A program made the position numbers and the translations under genes. Below the pieces are notes generated by a model. That model searched no databases and had not been told where the DNA came from. It worked only from the letters and a program-made list of their open reading frames with translations. A stretch of DNA of 64,000 nt from Pseudomonas sp. stari2 (lineage in GTDB: Bacteria > Pseudomonadota > Gammaproteobacteria > Pseudomonadales > Pseudomonadaceae): the NCBI RefSeq assembly GCF_040760005.1, contig NZ_CP099760.1, forward strand, positions 2,785,501-2,849,500, given 5' to 3'. Below are positions 18,001-47,883 of the stretch, piece by piece; position 1 is the first letter of the stretch, and the number at the start of each line of letters is the position of its first letter.

Positions 18001-21000
18001 CGTTCGGTGATCAGCCAGGAGCGCTGCTGTATCGCACCGGCGACCTCGCACGCTGGCTGGCACCGGGGCAACTGGAATGCATCGGGCGCAACGACGATCA
18101 GGTGAAAATCCGTGGTTTCCGTATCGAACTCGGAGAAATCGAAAACCGCCTGCAGAGCTGCGAAGGGGTCAGGGAAGCCATCGTGCTGGCCCGTCAGGAC
18201 GGCCAGGAACCGCTGCGTCTGGTGGCGTATTTCACGGCCGATGAAGGCGTCGACAGCGCCAGTCTGCGCGAACAATTGCAGGCACGCCTGCCGGAATACA
18301 TGGTGCCCTCGGCCTGGGTGCAGCTCGACGCCTTGCCACTGAACAACAACGGCAAAGTCGACCGCAAAGCCTTGCCGCTGCCGGCTCCGGGCGCCTGGCT
18401 CAGCCAGGCATACGAAGCTCCGCAAGGCCCGGTGGAAACCGCACTGGCGAAAATCTGGGCAGATGTCCTCAAACTGGAAAAGGTCGGTCGCCACGACAAC
18501 TTCTTCGAACTGGGCGGCCATTCGCTGCTGGCGGTGAGCCTGATCGAGCGCCTGCGACGGATCGGCCTGAGCACCGACGTGCGCGTACTGTTCAGCCAGC
18601 CAACCCTGGCCGCGCTGGCGGCAGCGGTGGGCAGTGGTCGCGAAATCGAAGTGCCGGCCAACCGTATTCCTGCTGATTGCACTCACATCACCCCGGACCT
18701 GCTGAGCCTGACCGAACTGGATCAGGCCGGTATCGACCGGATCGTCGCCACGGTGCCGGGCGGCGCCGCCAACGTGCAGGACATCTATCCGCTGGCGCCG
18801 CTGCAGGAAGGCATCCTTTATCACCATTTGAGCGCGGAGCAGGGCGACCCGTACCTGCTGCAATCGCGTCTGGCCTTCGACAGTGTCGAGCGCCTGCGCA
18901 CCTTCACCGACACCTTGCAGCAGGTCATCGCACGCCACGACATCCTGCGTACCAGCGTTGTCCACGAAGGCCTGGCGACGCCTCATCAAGTGGTGTGGCG
19001 CCACGCCGAACTGGTGGTTCAGCACGTCGCGCTGGATTCAGCAAACGGCGACATCCTTGAACAGTTGCACGAGCGCTTCGATGCCCGTCACTACCGCCTC
19101 GACATCAGCCAGGGGCCGCTGCTGCGCATGGTGTATGCCGAAGATCCGAAGCAGCAGCGTGTGGTGGCGATCCTGCTGTCTCATCACCTGATTCTCGATC
19201 ACACCGCGCTGGAAGTGATCGTCGATGAAATGCGCGGTGTGATGTTCGGTGAGATCGACCACCTTTCAGCGCCGATTCCCTATCGCAACTATGTGGCCCA
19301 GGCGCGCCTGGGGCTCAGCGAGCAGGAACACGAAGCGTTTTTCCGCGAGATGCTCGGCGACATCGACGAGCCGACCCTGCCGCTGGGGCTGCGGGATGTG
19401 CAGGGCGACGGTCATGGCATCGAAGAAGCGCTACAACCGGTAGCGGCCGAGCTCAATGTGCGTCTGCGTGAACAGGCACGGCAACTGGGCGTGAGTGCCG
19501 CCAGCCTGATGCACCTGGCCTGGGCGCAAGTGCTGGGCGTGCTGTCGAACCGCCGCGATGTGGTGTTCGGCACGGTGATGATGGGGCGGATGCAGGGCGG
19601 CGACGGCGCCGACCGGGCGCTGGGGGTGTTCATCAACACCCTGCCGCTGCGCATCGATGTCGGCGTCGGTGCGCGGGACGGGGTCAAGGCAACTCATGCG
19701 AGACTGACCGCGCTGCTGGGGTATGAACATGCCTCGCTGGCGCTGGCCCAGCGTTGCAGCGGTGTCGCGCCATCGTCGCCGCTGTTCAGCGCCTTGTTCA
19801 ACTACCGTCACAGCGCCCCCGCGCAGCCGTCGCAGAACGGCCAGGGCATCTGGGAGGGCGTGCAGAAACTCGGTGGCGAAGAGCGCACCAACTACCCGCT
19901 GACCCTGAGCGTGGACGATCTGGGTGAAGGGTTTGCCTTGTCGGCTCTCGCCGTCAGCCAGATCGGTGCGCAACGGATTTGCAGTTACATGCACACCGCG
20001 CTGGAACAACTGGTGCAGGCGCTGGAACAGACGCCGCAAAAACCGTTGAACCGCTTGCCGATCCTTTCGACTGCGGAACTGGAACGTCTGGTCGAGGGCT
20101 TCAACCCCCCGGTCACGGCCTATCCCCGTGGTGCAACGATTCACTCATTGGTCGAGGCCCAGGCCCAGCGTTACCCGAATGCCCTCGCCGTGATTCAGGG
20201 CGCGCAACAACTGACCTACGGGCAGCTCAATCAACGCGCCAATCAACTGGCCCATCACTTGATCGGCCTCGGCGTGCAACCGGACGACCGCGTCGCCATT
20301 TGCGTGCGTCGCGGCCCGCAGATGCTGGTCGGGCTGTTGGCGATCCTCAAGGCTGGCGCCGGTTATGTGCCGGTGGATCCGGCGCATCCGGCGGAGCGTA
20401 TTGCCTACCTGTTGCAGGACAGCGATCCGGTGGCCGTGCTGGTCCAGGCCTCGACCCGGGATCTGCCGGGCATGATGCCGGTGATCGATCTGGACAGCGA
20501 CGCCTGGCAACACCTGCCCGACAGCAACCCGCAACTGCCGTACCTGACCCCGGCAAATCTGGCGTACGTCATCTACACCTCGGGCTCCACCGGCCAGCCG
20601 AAAGGCGTGATGGTCGAACACGCGACTTTGGAAAACCTCGTGCACTGGCACGCCGAAGCCTTCGACCTGCACGCCGGCAGCCACACCGCCAGCGTTGCCG
20701 GGTTCGGTTTCGATGCGATGGCCTGGGAAGTCTGGCCGGCGCTGTGCGTCGGCGCGACCCTGCACCTGCCACCGGAATCAGTGAGCAATGAACACCTGGA
20801 CGAATTGCTCGACTGGTGGCGGGCGCAGCCGTTGCAAGTCAGCTTCCTGCCGACCCCGGTGGCCGAATACGCCTTCAGCCGCGAGTTGCAACACCCGACC
20901 CTGCGCACCTTGCTGATCGGCGGCGACAAGCTGCGCCAGTTCAACCGTGCGCAGAGCTTTGCGGTGATCAACAACTATGGCCCGACCGAAGCCACGGTGG

Positions 21001-46194: not shown

Positions 46195-46977
46195 TTAGGC
46201 CGCGTTCGAAGGGCCGCAGGCTGCCGGGCAGTCCTTCGGCGAATACATCCAGCGCATCAGCGAGTGACGTCCGCTGATGCCCAGTTTGATAGCTGCGCGT
46301 TTGAGGTAGCTTTCGACGGTGTTGACCTTCAGTTGCAACTGTTCAGCCAGTTCAGGCGCGGTGCGCCCGGCCAGCAGACCGACACACACTTCCATTTCGC
46401 GGTTCGACAGGCTCAACCCCAGTTGCTCCACTCGTTCGCAAAAGCGCAGGCGCAGGGTTTCCAGGCCCAGCAGGTTGGAATCTGATTGTTCCTGGGATTG
46501 TCCCTGGGCGTCAGTGTTTGCCGGTTGCAGGGCGTTGATGTGTTTTTCCACCATCGGCAGCAGCACCGGGGAAATGTCCTGCAACAAACTGCGCTCATGA
46601 GCGGAGAAGCGTTTTGCCGGGCCACAACGGTAGACCGAGATCACATAGCGATAACCGTCCTTGCGCCGGGTCAGGTGCAATTGCGAGGCGTCGGTGACCG
46701 TCGAGGGCTCGGGAGCGGGCAAATCATTGGCACTCGGCAGGGTGCTCAGTTCGGAATACACCGTTTCAGCCGGCAGTGGCGCTTCCTTGATGCATTCGGG
46801 TTCGCCGCGCGGTTGCGTGCGTCCGACCGGTTCCACGCGCATCTGCCGGATATGCGTGGCGTCCACCGCCAGTTGGGTCAGGATCAGGTCGTGCAGCATC
46901 CGTGGGAAATGTCGGCTGCCAGTGCTGGCGATGACCTTGCCAATGTGAGGAAACAGCTGTGAGTTCATGTCGTTCAT
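46195..46977 (-). CDS. LuxR-type transcriptional regulator of the lipopeptide cluster (downstream copy)
   Basis: A 260-residue regulator with a C-terminal GerE/LuxR HTH (LSLSNREMEVCVGLLAGRTA, then NTVESYLKRAAIKLGISGRH). Its organisation is the same as that of the regulator at 4158-4952, and the N-termini also correspond (GELIASTGNERF versus GKVIASTGSRHF). The two are therefore paralogues that bracket the NRPS-MacAB block, as in viscosin-, putisolvin- and gacamide-type loci. No AHL-binding motifs are evident. The gene is convergent with macB. ATG 46977 or ATG 46968 are both possible starts; GGATGA before the latter may be its ribosome binding site. The 300 nt upstream contain no gene; they hold AT-rich sequence with a TCCTAC element near 47190 and the terminator of the next small gene. 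Confidence 0.85.
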   Translation of the reverse strand: MNDMNSQLFPHIGKVIASTGSRHFPRMLHDLILTQLAVDATHIRQMRVEPVGRTQPRGEPECIKEAPLPAETVYSELSTLPSANDLPAPEPSTVTDASQLHLTRRKDGYRYVISVYRCGPAKRFSAHERSLLQDISPVLLPMVEKHINALQPANTDAQGQSQEQSDSNLLGLETLRLRFCERVEQLGLSLSNREMEVCVGLLAGRTAPELAEQLQLKVNTVESYLKRAAIKLGISGRHSLMRWMYSPKDCPAACGPSNAA

Positions 46978-47221
46978 CCATGAGTTGCAGTGTGGTACTC
47001 GTGTTCCTGAACCACCGGAAAACAGCTCCATGCCCGGCGACAGCGAATCAGGAAATTGGATCCTATCCTAGTACAACGTTTCAGCGACGGTTTAATGAAG
47101 GTGCTATTAGCTCATAACTGACGGTGAGGAGGATGTCGGGATGACAGATGTCAGAGAAATGCCTTACAGCAGAACAGGATCAATTTTATAAAAATTCCTA
47201 CAAGTGACAGTTTTCAAGAAC

Positions 47222-47261
47222 AAAAAAAGCCCGTTTCAGTCGAAGCCAAAACGGGCTTTTT
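47222..47261 (-). terminator. Terminator of the 32-codon ORF
   Basis: GCCCGTTT (47229-47236) pairs with AAACGGGC (47249-47256), extended by A/T pairs. On the minus strand it ends in seven T residues, 16 nt after the stop codon of the small ORF, which supports that ORF being transcribed. It could also act on the plus strand (five T). Confidence 0.85.
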
Positions 47262-47277
47262 CCCGCATCGACAACCG

Positions 47278-47376
47278 TTACTTCAGGTTGTCAAAGTGGT
47301 CTCGCAGGAACTCGTAAAAGCGAAACGCTTGAAACGATCTCCATACGAGGCTCAGCGTACGCAGCAAAAGCTTCAT
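47278..47376 (-). CDS. Small cationic amphipathic protein, 32 aa, candidate type I toxin
   Basis: ATG 47376 is preceded by TGGAGG (47386-47391) at 9-nt spacing, and the stop is followed by a strong terminator, so this short frame has all signals of a real gene. The protein begins MKLLLRTLSLVWRSF and ends FLRDHFDNLK. It has two Lys and four Arg against one Glu and two Asp, four Phe plus Trp and Tyr, and clustered Leu, so it can form an amphipathic, membrane-seeking helix. The frame is open up to 47568, but the upstream part has no start with comparable signals. I do not recognise a family. A divergent predicted sRNA (47769-47854) would pair with its 5' UTR 72-91 nt before the start codon, as in type I toxin-antitoxin systems. 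Toxicity is inferred only. Confidence 0.65.
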   Translation of the reverse strand: MKLLLRTLSLVWRSFQAFRFYEFLRDHFDNLK

Positions 47377-47447
47377 ACGTTTTGGCCTCCAGGTCGGGGG
47401 CCAGATCTCCAGCGCACTTACCGGACCATGTGTGCCTTCGGACATAA

Positions 47448-47467
47448 ACGTCAGTTCTGTCCATGAG
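47448..47467 (-). promoter_or_regulatory. Predicted sRNA-pairing site in the 5' UTR of the small ORF
   Basis: The plus strand here reads ACGTCAGTTCTGTCCATGAG, a direct copy of the 5' end of the predicted sRNA at 47769-47788 except for A instead of G at position 16. The minus-strand mRNA would therefore pair with the sRNA over 20 nt, the single difference becoming a G-U pair. Confidence 0.6.
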
Positions 47468-47635
47468 GTGGCCGGTTGTGATCCCTCCGAGCCATCATTC
47501 CGGCACGGGTGCAAAACCGTGTCGAAGGGCATGAAACCGTTATGGTTCCAGCCAAACCTTATGGACATACTGGCGAATGAGCGCTGGCATATTAACCTGT
47601 CTTATGGCGGGATTTTGAGGATCATGGATAAAGGT

Positions 47636-47641
47636 TTTATA
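47636..47641 (-). promoter_or_regulatory. Possible -10 element (TATAAA) for the small-ORF mRNA
   Basis: TATAAA on the minus strand in an AT-rich stretch; a CTGACA-like -35 lies 21 nt upstream, which is longer than ideal. It would give a 5' UTR of about 250 nt. Weak call. Confidence 0.25.
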
Positions 47642-47733
47642 TGTTTTGTAATTCGTTATTTCTGTCAGCGTGTTTTGGGGTGGTTAACGTCCGTCAGCAT
47701 CTTCCTTGACTTCGTGTAGCACGCAAAATAACG

Positions 47734-47762
47734 TTGCAACGAAGACCAAAGATTAATAGTAT
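47734..47762 (+). promoter_or_regulatory. Candidate sigma-70 promoter of the predicted sRNA
   Basis: TTGCAA (47734-47739), 17 nt, TAGTAT (47757-47762). Each box matches the consensus at four of six positions with ideal spacing. The start site would fall at about 47769, exactly the first base of the 20-nt complementary segment. Confidence 0.45.
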
Positions 47763-47768
47763 TCCGGT

Positions 47769-47854
47769 ACGTCAGTTCTGTCCGTGAGACAAAACAGGCC
47801 CCAGCCGCAAACTGAGGCCTACCGAAAAACCGCCCCGCAAAGGCGGTTTTTTTT
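47769..47854 (+). ncRNA. Predicted ~86-nt antisense-type sRNA divergent from the small ORF
   Basis: The predicted RNA has an unstructured 5' end (ACGTCAGTTCTGTCCGTGAG). Next is a hairpin formed by 47796-47804 (AGGCCCCAG) with 47812-47820 (CTGAGGCCT, one mismatch). It ends in a GC-rich terminator stem with eight T residues (47842-47854). No ORF of useful size is present. Its first 20 nt are complementary to the mRNA leader of the small ORF on the opposite strand some 300 nt away, so it is a likely trans-type RNA antitoxin in the manner of IstR-1 or OrzO. Its terminator also serves glcF on the minus strand. The existence of the RNA is predicted from sequence alone. Confidence 0.55.
47826..47854. 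terminator. Bidirectional terminator (predicted sRNA / glcF)
   Basis: AAAACCGCC (47826-47834) and GGCGGTTTT (47842-47850) form a 9-bp stem with loop CCGCAAA. Eight T residues end it on the plus strand and five on the minus strand. It lies 30 nt after the glcF stop. Confidence 0.85.
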
Positions 47855-47883
47855 CGCCCATCGTTTGGCTGTCGCCAGCAATC

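Follow-up and report, generated by a model that had tools for sequence, protein, structure and literature searches.

A locus in the genome of Pseudomonas sp. stari2 probably constitutes, judging from comparative sequence analysis, a chromosomal type I toxin-antitoxin (TA) module of a new family with locus-specific recognition. The window, meaning the whole stretch of DNA that was analysed, comprises 64,000 nucleotides (nt) of NCBI RefSeq assembly GCF_040760005.1 (contig NZ_CP099760.1, positions 2,785,501 to 2,849,500 of the forward strand), and the locus occupies its positions 47222-47854. The minus strand carries an open reading frame (ORF) for a 32-amino-acid (aa) peptide, MKLLLRTLSLVWRSFQAFRFYEFLRDHFDNLK, the candidate toxin (47278-47376, ATG at 47376), as seen in the sequence, the ORF list and the family profile. 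Divergent from it, on the plus strand, lies the gene of a small RNA (sRNA) of about 86 nt, the candidate antitoxin (47769-47854), composed of a pairing 5' end (47769-47788), a hairpin and a U8 terminator. The sRNA 5' end is complementary over 20 nt, with one G-U pair, to a segment of the peptide mRNA leader (47448-47467, minus strand), which lies 72-91 nt upstream of the AUG; at the level of DNA the two segments form the direct repeat ACGTCAGTTCTGTCC(A/G)TGAG at 47448-47467 and 47769-47788.

A first-pass annotation of this DNA had proposed a Pseudomonas analogue of known type I TA systems. The ORF, its Shine-Dalgarno (SD) sequence and terminator, the 20-nt repeat and the divergent sRNA segment with its U8 terminator were all found again on reading the sequence, and the observation proved not only right but stronger than one locus could show. 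Its interpretation as a type I TA analogue is supported by a repeat that is conserved and covaries and by an ORF that is conserved, for two RNAs presumably transcribed and a peptide presumably toxic. The family is a multi-copy one, seen only in Pseudomonas among the samples searched, and both genes, the compensatory pairing between them, selection on the coding frame, the conserved leader pairs and the promoters are supported in silico.

Compensatory change between the small RNA and the leader

Loci were gathered from all fetched DNA by the ABC- or D-type motif of the third leader stem-loop (SL3) and not by the paired segment. This gave 118 distinct leaders, three of which were dropped for a short flank, leaving 115 that were scored. 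The ORF filter passes 100 of these and rejects 15; these are the filter's counts, and L163, counted among the failures, keeps a 32-codon frame ending in RDSVDD. The window locus reaches a pairing score of 19.4; when its sRNA side was shuffled 2000 times, no score exceeded 13.2. Of the 100 loci passing the filter, whose median score is 19.0, 94 score at least 13, as do 6 of the 15 that fail it. Non-cognate swaps among the 100 loci have a median of 7.8 and reach at least 13 in 5.5% of 3000 cases, relatives sharing codes, and shuffled pairings do so in 1 of 500. The cognate partner is strictly the best against 30 random others in 65 of the 100 loci, and lies at or above their 90th percentile in 96.

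The 94 duplexes contain 2033 positions, of which 1884 are Watson-Crick pairs, 89 are G-U pairs and 60 are mismatched, with a median length of 22. Anchoring on UCA or UCG was possible for 85 of the 94 and yielded 65 distinct 18-nt duplexes. In these, 97.7% of positions are paired, compared with a mean of 63.3% (maximum 68.5%) for permuted partners, a control that kept the register without re-optimisation. Changes on both sides of the duplex occur at columns 4-18, that is, at 15 of the 18 columns, in 15 to 43 of the 65 duplexes. The repeat thus behaves across the family as expected of a conserved, covarying interaction. Within single genomes, two loci were compared in each of G000, G029, G047 and G168; cognate pairings score 16.8-22.0 there and crossed ones 7.0-13.8. 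In the largest flank cluster, which has 35 loci, codes vary between loci and pairing is maintained in most.

An alignment of the sRNA gene in the sRNA sense was possible for 80 of the 94 loci, those with sufficient sequence. It shows TTGCA/TTGAC and TANNNT, followed by about 20 nt of variable 5' end, by a hairpin that in most cases has the pattern AACCCCAG..CTGGGGTT, and by a CCGCC..GGCGG-U terminator. The window promoter TTGCAA-17-TAGTAT (47734-47762, plus strand), conserved in this alignment, has 8 of 12 consensus matches by the author's count, and was not flagged by a stricter consensus promoter scan. A TTG[AC]N-17/18-TANNNT pair stands just upstream of the paired segment in 92 of the 94 loci, with a spacer of 17 in 80 and of 18 in 12. 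The first paired base follows the -10 element by 5-8 nt in 84 of the 92 promoter-bearing loci, and the gap is 4-9 nt in 88 loci, compared with 0.3% of shuffled windows. The start sites of both RNAs are predicted ones; the sRNA start set by the window promoter coincides, as had been claimed, with the first complementary base, 47769, and retains the paired segment in the sRNA. The predicted sRNA fold has a z-score of -4.0.

Coding selection and leader structure

The peptide is under purifying selection, as indicated by Nei-Gojobori ratios of nonsynonymous to synonymous change (dN/dS) of 0.12-0.23. The individual values are 0.124 in subfamily A (26 distinct coding sequences), 0.232 in B (40), 0.144 in C (7) and 0.154 in D (9), figures that are descriptive, as the sequence pairs are non-independent. 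In the two other frames, the corresponding proportions (pN/pS) are 0.89-2.49, and third codon positions carry 52-70% of the coding-sequence differences in the four subfamilies. Conservation of the small ORF at the amino-acid level, on which the first-pass annotation depended, was thereby found. The peptides are 31-38 aa long and share a C-terminal FLRDxFDD-like motif. A conserved upstream extension of the ORF was considered and dropped: in the window the reading frame stays open beyond the 32-codon start, but in several relatives it is limited to 46 open codons, which makes the 32-codon start the sensible choice. A protein database search with the window's 54-aa frame returned six matches, three of them predicted proteins of 32 aa, with no Pfam domain.

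The SD sequence TGGAGG (47386-47391, minus strand) is present as GGAGG or GGGGG across the aligned leaders. The peptide mRNA ends at a Rho-independent terminator (47222-47265, minus strand), seen in folds as a long stem followed by a U run. Its -10 element TAATAT (47594-47589) and a start region at about 47582 (together 47582-47594, minus strand) are predicted; no good -35 was seen for it in the window sequence, and a TTAATAT/TTAGTAT-like block is kept at the -10 position across the family. The predicted mRNA fold has a z-score of -5.7.

Four stem-loops can be distinguished in the leader, all on the minus strand. SL1 (47499-47521) is recognised by motif and consists of a CACGG..CCGUG hairpin (47521-47504) running into UGCCGGA (47505-47499), a candidate pseudoknot partner; some members of subfamilies A and D have CGCGG..CCGCG instead. 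SL2 (47440-47462) is a local stem-loop that overlaps the sRNA-complementary segment, and both of its counted pairs change on both sides (in 19 and 6 of 67 leaders). SL3 (47409-47436) carries the near-constant loop UCCGGUAA, and of its six counted pairs two show two-sided change (in 14 and 5 of 67 leaders). SL4 (47384-47402), of the form GGCCCCC..GGAGGCC, sequesters the SD, its four GGCC pairs forming in 99.3% of cells over the 67 leaders. Applied to 67 aligned leaders of subfamilies A, B and C, RNAalifold gives a GCCUC:GAGGU stem, with SL3 and two pairs of the target hairpin inside it, followed by the SD hairpin. The 17 leader pairs form in 97.8% of cells, versus 93.7% in shuffled alignments and 18.7-40.5% in slid registers, and the covariation score is 0.177 versus 0.094 in shuffles, none of 500 of which reaches 0.177. 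Compensatory change among these pairs lies in SL2 and SL3, the four SD-hairpin pairs being nearly invariant and showing little covariation.

The candidate pseudoknot would join UCCGGUA in the SL3 loop (47425-47419) to UGCCGGA at SL1 through seven contacts, counted by eye in subfamilies A-C. Because its CCGG core is self-complementary and nearly invariant, support for it comes from one flanking contact. Of 94 leaders, all but 3 fit the motif; in these 91, the contact is U-A in 77, U-G in 5, G-U in 7 and G-C in 2, and one of the 77 U-A leaders has CCGA for CCGG on the SL1 side. By eye, the contact is C-G in subfamily E and G-U in L050 and L058. Few elements of the family are as constant as the SL3 loop itself (47419-47425, minus strand), which the ribosome or a protein may recognise.

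The 5' part of the mRNA is predicted to mask the sRNA target. In the fold of the full-length window mRNA, the target pairs with 47558-47575 (minus strand; mean pairing probability 0.71), and SL2 forms only when the 5' end is left out, as in a leader starting at 47530. The SD hairpin is present in both folds, and the SD bases have a mean pairing probability of 0.72 within SL4 in the window mRNA. By folding, pairing of the target with the 5' part exceeds 0.4 in 25 of 34 loci of subfamily A, 7 of 44 of B and 3 of 5 of C. When the 5' part is removed, local target pairing rises from 0.11 to 0.49 in A, from 0.30 to 0.41 in B and from 0.09 to 0.36 in C. In subfamily A, the mRNA is predicted to cover its target with its own 5' end. 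A code-specific self-pairing of the 5' end was rejected as a family-wide feature, with 12 of 34 loci of A and 2 of 44 of B above the 90th percentile of swaps, and scores of at least 8 in 10 of 34 (against 11% of swaps) and 0 of 44, respectively. The excess in subfamily A (12 of 34) hints that the 5' end there may follow the pairing code as well.

Proposed mechanism and competing explanations

In the mechanism proposed here, transcription, masking, repression, the function of the pseudoknot, the role of RNase III and toxicity are inferred. The mRNA made from one promoter would have a leader some 200 nt long, with the SD locked in SL4, so that ribosomes would have to load via an upstream element. 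This element would be the SL1-SL3 pseudoknot, as in timP of enterobacteria. In the subfamily of the window, the fresh transcript would mask the target with its own 5' end; consequently, the message should be inactive at first and require trimming or refolding, as with tisB. The divergent promoter would produce the short sRNA, whose 5' terminal 20 nt or so would pair with the target between SL1 and SL3, breaking the loading element and creating a substrate for RNase III, so that no peptide would be made while the sRNA is present. Once sRNA synthesis drops, the peptide would be made and growth would stop. Paralogues in one genome, having different pairing codes, should not cross-silence. A more ambitious picture is offered tentatively, the balance standing slightly against it: in a large Pseudomonas family of type I TA modules, RNA machinery that hardly varies (a gated leader with its SD locked, and a constant sRNA body) may carry an interchangeable, fast-evolving 20-nt address. 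The 65 distinct 18-nt duplexes counted, which change in concert even within one flank cluster, would make paralogues orthogonal, and a timP-type pseudoknot gate would have been reached independently in Pseudomonas.

The main rival, rather unlikely in itself, also has the sRNA silencing the peptide through base pairing, but takes the peptide to be non-toxic, a small regulator or the partner of a membrane protein, produced only under certain conditions. The pairing and coding evidence fits this equally well, the conserved charged C-terminal motif suggests a specific partner, and no toxin family was matched in Pfam, NCBIfam or PADLOC. Against this rival stand features that are typical of type I TA, though none is decisive: the patchy presence (64 of 199 genus genomes), the differing codes within one genome, and the repeated loss of the ORF, REP-like invasion and locked SD. 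It is highly improbable that the leader serves mainly as a decoy or sponge for a trans-acting sRNA with other mRNA targets. A free 5' seed, a hairpin and a U-tail would suit action in trans, and Pseudomonas has Hfq; the sRNA 5' end, however, changes in step with the neighbouring leader and differs between copies in the same genome and within a flank cluster, which a conserved trans regulon would not allow.

It is more improbable still that the repeat is a DNA feature, such as a paired operator or a recombination repeat, kept alike by gene conversion, with sRNA pairing as a by-product. The repeats do seem to recombine, 8 of the 115 loci being deletion-like, and conversion could contribute to concerted change. 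Copies whose likeness was a matter of DNA only would be expected to differ equally often in either direction. In a register based on identity only, from UCA onward, 50 G-U-compatible differences stand against 7 of A-C type, with 25 transversions (P 4e-9), a restriction chosen after seeing the data and applied to related loci. Including the position 5' of UCA, the skew drops to 51 versus 32 (P 0.048); a recurring unpaired C/T beside UCA inflated the A-C-type class. Counted once per position, change and subfamily, in a register that allowed G-U, the figures are 44 and 5. Such a skew is expected of RNA pairing rather than of a DNA repeat. The similarity also begins 5-8 nt after the sRNA -10 element in 84 of 92 promoter-bearing loci. 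Mean entropy is 1.09 bits per column in the target segment, against 0.32 and 0.33 in the flanking blocks; leader columns 4-16 and the SD-hairpin loop vary as much as the target. Under the preferred reading as a TA module, gene conversion may have helped to keep the two copies alike.

Several further results weigh, together with the reduced skew and the late choice of its register, against a TA module with a gated leader. Six loci that pass the ORF filter score below 13 (L072, L171 and L177 and the second copies in L027, L065 and L155). L171 and the L065 copy resemble repeat deletions by eye, and the other four are without explanation. The number of leader pairs with change on both sides (4) is not above that of shuffles (162 of 500). 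SL2 and SL3 are absent, as drawn, when the predicted full-length window mRNA is folded by itself, SL3 being altered there; masking by the 5' end is weak in subfamily B (7 of 44 loci); and the CCGG:CCGG core limits the pseudoknot as described above. The peptide had been called amphipathic, a description that did not hold up: the maximum hydrophobic moment of five family peptides has P = 0.056-0.135 against shuffles, so that amphipathicity is not clear beyond composition, and the C-terminus is charged. The window peptide has no Pfam match (E<=0.001), and the peptides submitted had none in NCBIfam, PADLOC or PDB sequences.

Related systems, distribution and decay

In tisB/istR-1 of E. coli, a single-copy locus, a divergent sRNA pairs over about 20 nt far upstream of the AUG of a small peptide whose SD is sequestered. 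Full-length tisB mRNA is inactive, its 5' end masking the sRNA-target/standby region. The present family resembles it in the divergent sRNA, the distant pairing of about 20 nt, the sequestered SD, the small peptide and, in subfamily A at least, the predicted masking of the target. It differs in having several copies and no exact LexA-type box: no exact CTG-N10-CAG occurs in window positions 47250-47870 (L001 1501-2121; exact boxes only), and SOS/LexA control was dropped for this reason. Homology to TisB/IstR received no support from Pfam (E<=0.001) or Rfam, no direct alignment to TisB having been made. The comparison with tisB drawn in the first-pass annotation therefore holds in part, through the masking predicted in subfamily A, and is weakened by the missing box and by a leader order that also recalls timP/TimR.

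The E. coli pairs zorO/orzO and dinQ/agrB have a divergent layout and an sRNA whose 5' end pairs in the leader, and are alike in both respects; they differ in that no sequence relation was found in family scans. The sRNA hairpin and terminator (47785-47855, plus strand) give a weak Rfam match to AgrB RNA, at 24.4 bits below the gathering threshold of 40, and ZorO was not matched in generic Pfam/NCBIfam scans, no ZorO-directed comparison having been made. In the multi-copy type I families ibs/Sib and ldr/Rdl, each antitoxin is specific to its own toxin mRNA and lies opposite the toxin gene. The present family likewise has several copies per genome, with antitoxins predicted to be specific to their own mRNA, but the antitoxin here has a divergent gene of its own, whose pairing code is short and variable.

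The leader plan recalls a scheme demonstrated experimentally by Eleftheraki and Holmqvist. According to PMC11228461, the timP leader comprises SL1-SL4, with the sRNA binding SL2, SL4 sequestering the SD and a 7-bp SL1-SL3 pseudoknot needed for translation; the paper also mentions a standby pseudoknot in tisB. The likeness to timP/TimR lies in the order of the leader elements and the candidate SL1-SL3 pseudoknot. In the present family, the SL2-SL4 pairs hold on the 67-leader alignment and SL1 is recognised by motif, but the full-length window fold places the target on the 5' end rather than in SL2. The differences are the genus, a pseudoknot that is here predicted, and several copies with different pairing codes. 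Over the window, Rfam gave no match at gathering score; at relaxed E over the locus there were 11 weak matches, none above gathering and none to a timP/RyfA model.

The family is probably a new one among type I TA systems. No description of the peptide/sRNA family was found in the open PMC literature, which is not proof of absence, and the word 'Pseudomonas' has no occurrence in PMC11264685. The abstract of a review assigns the ten characterised P. aeruginosa systems to type II. In PMC8790059, a hok-sok-like pair is predicted in P. syringae DC3000, and hok-sok is the only type I family among 339 P. syringae genomes, with no other type I toxin found by BLAST or HMMER; that pair, also a predicted type I TA in Pseudomonas, is set beside the present family by description only. 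Type I TA is thus hardly known in Pseudomonas, family matches occur in 64 of the 199 genus genomes sampled, and neither Pfam, NCBIfam nor Rfam assigns the window's copy to any family. With dozens of naturally occurring compensatory sRNA:mRNA pairs set in one near-constant frame, the family makes sRNA specificity, orthogonality and structure-gated translation directly testable.

The genus sample consisted of 199 genomes of the window's genus. A DNA search matched 65 of them, some only in the terminator or a short leader block. The window peptide alone matched 32 at E<=0.1. With a profile built from 15 subfamily peptides, 64 genomes matched at E<=0.01, a few of them weakly or partially. The window's own genome holds a second locus (G000:C1:1335701-1336244). 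A pattern anchored on SL3 found 85 stretches in one-genome-per-species contigs; among the matches listed, 80 of 80 are from Pseudomonas (fluorescens, syringae/viridiflava, chlororaphis, gingeri and related groups). At family level, profile A1 matched 6 of 148 genomes, all of the own genus (1 of 19 genera). At class level, profile A3 matched, among 274 genomes, the own one and one marginally and partially (E 0.0076), taken as chance. A phage search gave no match to the locus, and a plasmid search gave 72 records, each of the 20 matches listed covering the sRNA terminator stretch only (query 554-605). Besides MKLLLRTLSLVWRSFQAFRFYEFLRDHFDNLK of subfamily A, the peptides are represented by MSKFARRTWNLVVNCLRAYHVWKFLRDSFDDR (B), MSKILRRTWSLVVNAFRAYRLYEFLRDHFDNQR (C) and MKRLLNTLSRVWKLVRILIVFRTARDFLRDHFDDAR (D), and more distant subfamilies reach down to MRLIKLSCRAAWEGFCALVKVAQGYKLFAWMRDHYDDF, with a shared end around (L/M)RDx(F/Y/W).

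Decay of the module is frequent among the 15 loci rejected by the ORF filter. Ten have a REP-like sequence after the first codons (L073, L075, L111, L121, L140, L149, L154, L172, L176 and L180), two a frameshift (L012 and L059), one an early stop (L117) and one ATT for ATG (L123); L163 has a full frame with a changed end. The REP-like sequence (TGTGGCGAGGGAGC...) stands in 8 of the 10 loci at one identical place after MSKFA/MSRFA, a repeated use of one site that looks odd. These losses would fit a dispensable or costly gene. Low-scoring loci were considered as counter-examples to the pairing and set aside, since in 8 of the 15 below 13 the sRNA terminator stands directly before the target hairpin (L073, L075, L117, L121, L140, L149, L163 and L180), with a similar look by eye in L111, L171 and the second copy in L065. 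In the eight, both promoters appear lost as if by recombination between the repeats, and the module may be erased through recombination at these repeats of about 20 nt.

By their flanks, 97 loci group into 15 clusters; the number is approximate, because a single place may be divided where its flanks have diverged. Of these loci, 5 belong to the window's cluster and 35 to the largest, and glcF adjoins 5 loci. At L024, L030, L027, L065, L155 and L051, the module occurs in tandem, its copies spaced about 500-800 nt, with pairing codes that differ in some; the second leader of L027 scores 17.4 with the sRNA of its tandem neighbour. In the window, a gene for a LuxR-type (GerE) regulator (46195-47031, minus strand) lies just downstream of the peptide gene and is unlikely to be a member of the module, since most other loci differ in their neighbours. 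Elsewhere in the window, ARAGORN identifies a selenocysteine tRNA gene (20065-20161, plus strand).

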